This document shows positions 23,485-56,341 of a DNA stretch of 57,817 nt, piece after piece. The position numbers and the translations under genes were made by a program. The notes beneath the pieces are model-generated. The model saw nothing but the letters and a program-made list of their open reading frames with translations. It searched no databases and was not told the DNA's origin. The DNA is from Thiohalocapsa sp. (GTDB lineage: Bacteria; Pseudomonadota; Gammaproteobacteria; Chromatiales; Chromatiaceae): the NCBI GenBank assembly GCA_021736785.1, contig JAIPFF010000033.1:1-57817 (forward strand), in the 5' to 3' direction. How positions within the stretch are numbered: the stretch's first letter is position 1; every line of letters begins with the position of its first letter.

Positions 23485-23571
23485 TGGTACCGGGGACGAG
23501 ACTCGAACTCGTAAGGTGTTGCCACCGGTGGATTTTGAGTCCACTGCGTCTACCAATTCCGCCACCCCGGC
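23485..23571 (-). tRNA. tRNA-Leu(CAA)
   Basis: The minus strand reads GCCGGGGTGGCGGAATTGG at its 5' end. Acceptor strands GCCGGGG and CCCCGGT pair fully with one G-U. The anticodon loop CTCAAAA gives CAA, the variable arm is long (class II) and the T-arm carries GTTCGAGTC. Discriminator A and an encoded CCA complete the 87-nt gene. The anticodon reads UUG codons. Confidence 0.97.
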
Positions 23572-23815: not shown

Positions 23816-24844
23816 ATGCGCCGATCCGATTTCCACTACGACCTTCCGCCTTCGCTGATTGCCCAACACCCGCTGCCCGAGCGCCGTGCGAGCCGTCTGT
23901 TGACGTTGGATGGCATGTCGGGTGCCATCGCCGACCTGAAATTCGAAGACTTGCCGTCGCTGCTGCGTCCCGGCGACTTGCTGGTATTCAACGATACCCG
24001 TGTCATTCCGGCGCGCCTGTATGCCCGCAAGGAAACCGGCGGACGCGTGGAGATTTTGGTCGAGCGGCTGCTCGCCGACGGCGGGGTCGCGGCGCATGTG
24101 CGTGCCGGCAAAGCATTGCGCGCCGGCGGCTTGCTGGTACTGCCGGGCGATGAGCGGATCGAGGTGCTCGGGCGCGACGGCGATCTTTTTCTGCTGCGCG
24201 GCGTCGGTGTGGATTTCGCCGACCTGATGCGCCGCCATGGCCACATGCCGCTGCCGCCCTACATTCGACGTGCCGACGAGGCGAGTGACCGAGAGCGCTA
24301 TCAGACCGTTTATGCCCGCCGCGACGGTGCGGTCGCGGCCCCGACCGCCGGACTGCATTTCGACGCGGCGATGCTGGAGCAACTGCGTGCGCAGGATATC
24401 GATTTCGCGCACGTGACACTGCACGTGGGCGCGGGCACCTTCCAGCCCGTGCGTGTCGACGACCTCGAGCAGCACCGGATGCATGCGGAGTGGATCGACG
24501 TCGGTGCCGGGGTCTGCGAGCAAGTGGCTCGGGCGCGCGCCCGTGGCGGGCGCGTGGTTGCGGTCGGTACCACCTCCGTTCGCAGTCTCGAGAGCGCGGC
24601 GAGCGACGGCGAACTGCGGCCGTTTCGCGGCGACAGCCGTTTATTCATCCGTCCCGGTTACCGTTTCCGGGCGGTCGATGCGATGATCACCAACTTCCAT
24701 TTGCCGGAGTCGACGCTGCTGATGTTGGTGTCGGCCTTTGCCGGTCATACACAAATCATGACCGCTTATGGCCACGCCGTTTCCGAGCGCTACCGTTTCT
24801 TCTCTTACGGAGACGCGATGTTCCTGACCCGGCGCGACGGCTGA
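23816..24844 (+). CDS. queA: S-adenosylmethionine:tRNA ribosyltransferase-isomerase
   Basis: QueA transfers and isomerises the ribosyl group of SAM onto preQ1 in tRNA, making epoxyqueuosine. The 342-residue product begins [28 protein letters not shown] and contains [35 protein letters not shown] and [19 protein letters not shown], all diagnostic. The ATG is at 23816. It precedes tgt, the next gene of the queuosine pathway on the same strand, with the minus-strand msrA and the plus-strand HAD gene in between. Confidence 0.97.
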
Positions 24845-24946: not shown

Positions 24947-24974
24947 AAAAAAAAAGCGCGGCTGGCGCCGCGCT
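24947..24974 (-). terminator. Rho-independent terminator of sRNA/msrA transcript
   Basis: The perfect 8-bp GC-rich stem AGCGCGGC/GCCGCGCT with a tetraloop is followed on the minus strand by an uninterrupted run of nine T residues. It is the clearest intrinsic terminator in the window. It ends transcription coming from msrA and/or the candidate sRNA, about 100 bp past the convergent queA stop. Confidence 0.85.
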
Positions 24975-25034
24975 CTAAGATTACCACCAAAGGAGGATGG
25001 AGGAGTGCACTGAAGAACTGCGAATCTTCAGTAC
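24947..25034 (-). ncRNA. Candidate trans-acting sRNA with anti-SD motifs
   Basis: Read on the minus strand, this region has the three-part layout of a regulatory sRNA. First is a 10-bp hairpin (GTACTGAAGA/TCTTCAGTGC, 25034-25007, 8-nt loop). Then comes a single-stranded pyrimidine-rich stretch CTCCTCCATCCTCCTTT (about 25005-24989) complementary to Shine-Dalgarno sequences. Last is an intrinsic terminator: an 8-bp stem AGCGCGGC/GCCGCGCT with a 4-nt loop (24974-24955) and nine Ts (24955-24947). A TTGACA lies at 25069-25064, but no good -10 box is spaced correctly. There is no open reading frame of note. It could alternatively be released from the msrA 3' UTR, since msrA ends at 25182 on the same strand. 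Confidence 0.6.
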
Positions 25035-25181
25035 ATCAACAGTTTCTTAAATACCCATGTATCTGTCAAGTCCCGCATCCACATTTTTGCCTACGCAATG
25101 TCGCTTTTTGCACAATTTCAGCGGACATTTTTGCGGGATTGTGCGCTGGTTCCGTTTCGCGCCCATCCTCCCTTGCCGACG

Positions 25182-25841
<660 letters not shown>

Positions 25842-56265: not shown

Positions 56266-56341
56266 GCTGGCGTAGCTCAGTTGGTAGAGCAGCTGATTTG
56301 TAATCAGCCGGTCGTAGGTTCGAATCCTATCGCCAGCTCCA
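56266..56341 (+). tRNA. tRNA-Thr(TGT)
   Basis: GCTGGCG and CGCCAGC acceptor strands pair fully. The D-arm is TAGCTCAGTTGGTAGAGCA and the anticodon loop TTTGTAA gives TGT. The T-arm is TAGGTTCGAATCCTA, with discriminator T and encoded CCA ending at 56341. It appears to be the attachment locus of the degraded element to its right. Confidence 0.97.

Follow-up and report, generated by a model that had tools for sequence, protein, structure and literature searches.

A candidate anti-Shine-Dalgarno small RNA gene between queA and msrA in Thiohalocapsa sp. and its relation to RF02278/S17-like RNAs

The locus and the predicted RNA

The window analyzed here is a stretch of 57,817 nucleotides from Thiohalocapsa sp. 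(Chromatiaceae), in which queA, a candidate small RNA (sRNA) gene, msrA, a HAD gene and tgt follow one another in this order (Table 1). The locus is very likely a real sRNA gene, its transcription being predicted from sequence.

Table 1. Coordinates of the features at the locus, numbered from the first base of the window
Feature	Position	Strand	Basis or remark
Candidate sRNA gene, about 89 nt	24947..25035	minus	5′ end predicted from promoter; sequence, fold, conservation, covariation
5′ stem-loop, 11 bp	25006..25035	minus	letters vary, pairing kept
Core CACTCCTCCATCCTCCTTTGGTGG, nearly invariant	24984..25007	minus	DNA search, alignments
Site 1, ACUCCUCCA, anti-SD word	24998..25006	minus	partly open, partly inside weak small hairpin
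Small hairpin CC-CCA / UGG-GG, loop UCCUCCUU = Site 2, anti-SD word	24984..25003	minus	predicted fold
Intrinsic terminator: 8-bp stem, GCCA loop, nine Ts	24947..24974	minus	sequence and covariation
-35 element TTGACA	25064..25069	minus	exact in 90 of 134 complete members, by comparison
-10 region TATTTAA-GAAACT	25041..25053	minus	consensus TATWTTA-GAAAMT in 74 non-redundant members
queA, convergent neighbor	23816..24844	plus	PF02547; syntenic marker outside the RNA
msrA, upstream neighbor	25182..25841	minus	PF01625; same strand as sRNA, not constant

The 5′ hairpin is formed by the arms TGTACTGAAGA and TCTTCAGTGCA, with positions 25035-25025 opposite 25016-25006 in 11 pairs including one G-U. 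The CU tract ACTCCTCCATCCTCCTTTGGTGG has its 3′ limit at 24984, and two anti-Shine-Dalgarno (anti-SD) words, ACTCCTCCA and TCCTCCTT, lie in the CU-rich tract (all on the minus strand). The terminator reads AGCGCGGC-GCCA-GCCGCGCT (24974-24955), and the nine Ts occupy 24955-24947, so that the first T lies within the stem. All of the elements listed in a preliminary description of the locus (a 10-bp hairpin, two anti-SD motifs, an 8-bp terminator and nine Ts) are thus present, with the correction that the hairpin has 11 pairs. A 90-base RNA from the locus folds at -39.3 kcal/mol as against -20.55 kcal/mol (sd 2.87) for dinucleotide shuffles (z = -6.5), and none of 200 such shuffles folds as well. 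The pyrimidine tract had been described as unpaired. This holds for Site 2, UCCUCCUU, which lies in the loop of the small hairpin with a computed unpaired probability of 0.70-1.0, but the tract is not wholly single-stranded, since a weak small hairpin is predicted at 25003-24984 and Site 1 is partly paired. In Site 1, ACUCCUCCA, the C, the U and the middle U are open (computed unpaired probability 0.95-0.99), two Cs stand at about 0.33 and the first A at 0.27, while pairing takes up the final CCA (0.01-0.02).

In agreement with the claimed absence of a coding frame, no minus-strand frame of 80 or more amino acids was found to overlap the sRNA; a plus-strand frame of 150 amino acids does overlap it, and the ATG at the predicted RNA start reads ATG TAC TGA. 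Comparison of the whole window with Rfam at the gathering score returned only two tRNA genes, at 23488-23571 (minus strand) and 56266-56338 (plus strand), and no match at the sRNA locus. A phage collection searched in distant mode gave zero matches.

Promoter

A generic promoter scan of the locus returned nothing, and the promoter is apparent only through comparison of relatives. Such comparison reveals a conserved sigma-70-type promoter, TTGACA-N17-GAAACT, at 25069-25041. TTGACA stands at 17-base spacing from the -10 in 78 of the 134 complete members, and both this count and that of exact -35 elements (Table 1) are affected by the promoter caller, which itself favors TTGACA. The 74 members behind the -10 consensus were preselected for TTGAC, for the 17-base spacing and for a promoter score that includes the -10, and therefore only the other promoter positions are independent evidence; unscored yet conserved are the TATWTTA ahead of GAAAMT and the AT-start of the hairpin. 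Within the 40 bases upstream of the -35, bias is limited to the last two, so that no shared activator site is visible there. Similarity to the relatives of the genus begins at about TTGACA (query positions 28-32) and extends to the T-run.

Conservation and covariation

A 156-base DNA query matched 34 of the 56 relative genomes searched, the own genome among them. All 10 genomes of the genus were matched, once each, and all 10 carry an 18-mer of the core exactly. With a covariance model (R1), the RNA was detected at E <= 0.01 in 38 of the 43 genomes of the family, a few of these matches being weak, and at E <= 0.001 in 152 of the 369 genomes of the class, some near the limit; these E-values are rough, and the 14 control genomes belong to the RF02278 scan described below and not to R1. 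The class as used here takes in the former Betaproteobacteria. The own genome holds one strong R1 copy, with the runner-up at E 0.04. An exact 19-mer of the core occurs in at least 117 stretches. Among the 19-mer matches listed, all come from Gammaproteobacteria, their groups or symbionts, except one from Gallionellaceae (L075) and two unspecific ones (L131, L147). Many of those listed are sulfur oxidizers, including Thiocapsa, Allochromatium, Halochromatium, Thioalkalivibrio, Thiothrix, Sedimenticola, Beggiatoa and Thiomargarita, which may be a matter of lineage and not of metabolism. Thiocapsa roseopersicina is one of the named relatives in which the gene is present.

Two alignments were used. 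Alignment A1 comprises 27 of 81 full-length members, and alignment A2, together with R1, was built on 60 of the 134 complete members (core plus terminator); six cores near contig ends and duplicates were left out, and later three more of 137. Most members of A2 and R1 were found by the exact 19-mer search, and the invariance of the core in A2 is therefore partly due to selection. The set of 56 genomes searched by BLAST is less biased than the 19-mer set, yet leans on the core too.

Double changes are seen in 7 of the 25 pairs of A1, with 24 double-changed cells as against a shuffled mean of 6.1. None of 500 shuffles reached this signal on any of five measures and sliding of the partners destroyed it, with the caveat that an excess over shuffles can also arise among related sequences, although the pair and type counts are less affected. 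The 5′ hairpin has both sides changed in 5 of its 11 pairs while 98.6% of cells remain paired; 2 of the 9 terminator pairs covary, and the nearly invariant mid hairpin shows covariation in none of 5. In the 60 members of A2, double changes occur in all 9 terminator pairs and again in none of the 5 pairs of the mid hairpin. In the distant members L181, L182, L188, L194 and L196 the loop-2 hairpin varies while the stem is kept by eye (for example ACCATC-CTCCTTT-GATGGT), which supports this hairpin outside the main alignment. The discrete sRNA gene with anti-SD motifs that the preliminary description proposed is thus supported, at the level of sequence, by an own promoter, a covarying hairpin and a conserved core, and conservation does continue beyond the terminator, with promoter, hairpin and pyrimidine tract all conserved in relatives.

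The wider group also holds members of other construction. In four stretches from Sedimenticola/Chromatiales (L025:1430-1560, L054, L088 and L108), the same core and terminator follow another kind of 5′ part, in which a GGCCAAAGGCNGTATCGNAGTAG-like stretch is shared, and none of the four matched an Rfam family at the gathering score. In a Thiotrichaceae MAG (L095:5785-6024), three core-terminator units stand in tandem about 103-118 bases apart. L091, L143 and L145 have few bases between the best promoter-like match and the core and no visible 5′ hairpin; these are possibly versions derived from 3′ untranslated regions (3′ UTRs).

Relationship to known small RNAs

The best-supported kin of the window RNA, as judged from sequence, is the RF02278/S17 type. 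RF02278 (Betaproteobacteria toxic sRNA) includes the Burkholderia double-hairpin RNAs ncS03, ncS05, ncS27 and ncS62, and bdhR1. Its members have the CUCCUCCA word, then a hairpin with a CU-rich anti-SD loop, and then a terminator with a U-tail, all of which are found in the window RNA; the latter differs by a shorter loop-2 stem, an extra covarying 5′ hairpin and the presence of a single strong copy. Burkholderia is reported to carry three to five RF02278 copies, of which ncS03, ncS05 and ncS27 are increased in biofilm and in glucose medium, and RNAs of this family are reported to inhibit growth on introduction to E. coli (available parts of PMC5688073 and PMC4603805). The available part of a preprint on Bordetella pertussis (PMC11722255) describes S17S as a 67-nt, Hfq-dependent RNA with two CU-rich sites, which impaired the growth of E. 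coli only modestly and on entry into stationary phase. According to the same source, S17S is cut by RNase E out of a 190-nt precursor and adjoins coq7, and 70 genes raised upon its deletion match its sites at or near their ribosome-binding sites (RBSs). It represses BP2158 directly, and the direct target shown in that part of the study is one sigma-54 activator. The window RNA is likened to S17S by layout and not letter by letter: in both, as far as the available account of S17S goes, a CU-rich Site 1 and a loop Site 2 lie in a stretch identical over many species and are followed by a 3′ terminator, and S17S anneals to RBSs in an Hfq-dependent manner. The window RNA lies between queA and msrA close behind a promoter of its own, whereas S17S is processed and sits beside coq7.

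The covariance scores bear on how far this kinship can be taken. The window copy scores 24.6 bits with RF02278, below the gathering cut-off of 50, although cmscan aligns the whole model. L147, with the same 22-base core as the window RNA, reaches 50.5 bits and was the only one to pass among 15 loci scanned. A scan of the same 369 class genomes with RF02278 (E <= 0.001) matched 102, two of them above the cut-off, and none of 14 control genomes; the own genome gave no match at this limit. R1 matches were found in 97 of the 102 RF02278-matched genomes, many at the same place by eye, and R1 recovers the strongest RF02278 member (G257). R1 fails on the other five, including G141, which is the second-best and one of the two above the cut-off. 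Our reading of these sequence matches is that R1 and RF02278 members would form one group, and that RF02278 samples it only narrowly. The window RNA would work like the RF02278 family and is not filed in it, because of its 24.6 bits against 50, though a locus with the same core passes. Within the RF02278/S17-like anti-SD sRNAs it appears to form a gammaproteobacterial branch, with one lineage in which the ortholog is kept at queA-tgt. The core is short and constrained, so that convergence may also account for the resemblance.

Other families resemble the window RNA less closely. NmsRA/NmsRB (RcoF) of Neisseria have, according to the available part of their description, three stem-loops with anti-SD words between SL1 and SL2 and in the SL2 loop, which is the same layout (PMC5362039). 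The window copy scores 16.4 bits with NmsRb (RF02877) as against a cut-off of 52, which gives no evidence of common descent, and Neisseria has two siblings. The Neisseria RNA AniS (RF02274), in which a hairpin, a CU tract and a terminator come in the same order, gave the highest raw Rfam score for the locus, 26.6 bits, which is below its cut-off of 50. AniS is FNR-controlled, whereas at the window locus the 40 bases ahead of the -35 show no conserved site for a regulator. The preliminary description had linked the locus to the alphaproteobacterial CUCCUCCC-loop sRNAs (CcsR type). Of the 10 Rfam families that matched below threshold, with E up to 10, none bears the CcsR name, and suhB/mmgR, the one alphaproteobacterial family in that list, scores 21.3 bits as against a cut-off of 41. 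The link is thus unsupported, and RF02278/S17 are the better-supported kin. At the level of sequence, nothing was found for the proposed role in oxidative stress.

Putative targets

Extended targets were sought in the 10 genus genomes with an 18-mer at up to 3 mismatches. This gave 18 hits, 10 of them the RNA itself and 8 isolated ones with 3 mismatches, as against 13 hits for the reversed pattern, so that across the genus no site of extended complementarity is found repeatedly. The loop complement together with a start codon returned 10 self matches and 4 isolated sites in the same genomes. The Site 1 complement ahead of a start codon gave 90 hits versus 39 for the reversed pattern, an excess that could be explained by ordinary SD function. 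Among 886 genes of related loci, RBS complementarity of at least 8 bases was found in 28 and of at least 9 bases in 11, with up to 12 starts allowed per gene. Shuffled cores gave a mean of 16.3 and a maximum of 39 genes at 8 or more bases, and a mean of 4.0 and a maximum of 17 at 9 or more. The 28 of 886 falls inside this range, and thus there is no general excess of RBS complementarity.

A cold-shock gene (PF00313), which we take from sequence features to be CspD-like, appeared among 30 loci read, in the own genome and in G009; its RBS reads TGGAGGAGT. At least 8 contiguous complementary bases within the 25-30 bases preceding the start were found in 21 of the 33 readable family orthologs (37 examined), in batches of 18 of 27 and 3 of 6 (one of the three at -24; 4 unreadable); this gene was picked after it recurred, and its orthologs are not independent. 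The paralogs had a match of 8 or more bases in 1 of 28 readable cases (32 examined, 4 unreadable). Across the class, with 84 of 88 genomes readable, a csp RBS match was found in 3 of 46 genomes with the RNA and in 0 of 38 genomes lacking it, which is no significant association (Fisher p = 0.25; rank test p = 0.23). At best, cspD is a lineage-limited target candidate. Three genus genomes (L244, L253 and L258) among the same 30 loci have TGGAGGAGT ahead of the start of a SoxA/TsdA-type cytochrome c gene (PF21342); this gene was dropped as a candidate because its own-genome ortholog on contig C35 is absent among the exact hits of the Site 1 complement.

Proposed function

The reading that we consider probable is that of an independent sRNA gene with a sigma-70-type promoter and three stem-loops, whose anti-SD words block the RBSs of several mRNAs. 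The promoter would start an RNA of about 89 nt, ending at the terminator at 24947. Once folded into its three stem-loops, this RNA would offer UCCUCCUU in loop 2 and ACUCCUCCA just before it to the purine-rich RBSs of several mRNAs, and binding of the 30S subunit would be blocked, by analogy with S17 and RF02278. For pairing at Site 1, the weak small hairpin would need to open. The genome encodes Hfq (105.8 bits), which would probably bind the U-tail and aid pairing. The 5′ hairpin probably guards the 5′ end rather than choosing targets, because its letters vary while the pairing is kept. By this analogy, the sRNA is most likely an Hfq-assisted trans-acting repressor. Against this reading stand the low RF02278 score of the window copy, the failure of RF02278 to match the own genome and of R1 to find G141, the partial pairing of Site 1, and target searches that gave neither a recurring extended site nor a significant class-wide csp association.

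An unlikely alternative, yet the best placed of those weighed, is a decoy RNA whose invariant core imitates the 16S anti-SD tail and acts by broad SD competition or as a sponge for a protein such as Hfq, and not on particular mRNAs. The core does, as we judge it, resemble that tail. Also in favor of a decoy, the core hardly changes even between distant genomes (in part because of how the members were selected), extended targets of a specific kind do not recur, and complementarity shows no clear excess over the genome as a whole. Bulk titration is less likely, however, as each genome of the genus (10 in all) has just one DNA match, and in the available account of S17 that RNA acts on a limited gene set, with BP2158 repressed directly (PMC11722255).

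Gene neighborhood and origin

The repressor reading takes the RNA as the product of its own gene, whereas the preliminary description had suggested processing from the msrA 3′ UTR, that is, cleavage downstream of msrA. The neighborhood of 178 distinct cores bears on this point. Within 1.5 kb, queA is found near 41 of them, always on the 3′ side and convergent, and tgt near 28, always on the 5′ side; from these counts the sRNA position is an old queA-tgt one. The remaining 135 cores, other than the 43 with queA or tgt nearby, are located elsewhere or have too little flank, so that the wider group is not one syntenic set. Consistent with processing, 16 of the 20 cores close to msrA have this gene 5′ of them and in the same orientation, some members of the wider group have no visible promoter (e.g. 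L091, L143, L145), and S17S itself is, in the part of its description available, made through RNase E processing (PMC11722255). The locus in the window has a conserved promoter at the right distance, msrA is missing within 1.5 kb of 29 of the 43 cores that neighbor queA or tgt, 25 of the 178 sit between queA and tgt and have no msrA, and msrA is inverted in 4 of the 20 (L013, L036, L039, L128). For these reasons an msrA 3′-UTR origin is unsupported, and we regard it as very improbable. Least probable is that the locus is no more than a strong terminator serving convergent transcripts, next to which a pyrimidine tract has arisen by chance. A terminator does stand between the converging queA and msrA, but conservation continues upstream of it through the core, the hairpin and the promoter.

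Wider meaning

The available part of a Herbaspirillum paper describes RNAs of this kind as currently exclusive to Betaproteobacteria (PMC7011215). An RF02278-type hit in an Aeromonas salmonicida strain is already on record in a source available in part, and their presence outside the betaproteobacteria has therefore been noticed before. Searches of open-licence literature for purple sulfur bacterial sRNAs, or for this group in gammaproteobacteria, gave no description of it as judged by titles and abstract openings. Beyond the single locus, we tentatively suggest, at somewhat less than even confidence, one ancient anti-SD sRNA group across much of the gamma/beta class, with a near-unchanged core of 22-24 bases that copies the mRNA-binding tail of the ribosome. 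Its place at queA-tgt may have become fixed in the lineage of the purple sulfur bacteria and close relatives, and elsewhere it may have been reused behind other 5′ parts and as the ends of 3′ UTRs. RF02278 and S17 would then represent no more than the beta branch, and in Chromatiaceae the targets might include a growth-phase gene, for instance cspD. The public RF02278 model passes its cut-off in two of the 369 class genomes, as against R1 matches in 152. Should these RNAs belong to one group, a translational repressor missed by public models would be shared by many bacteria, phototrophic and other sulfur oxidizers among them. The constant core behind changing 5′ parts also leads to a testable question, namely how targets are chosen by an RNA able to match many strong ribosome sites.
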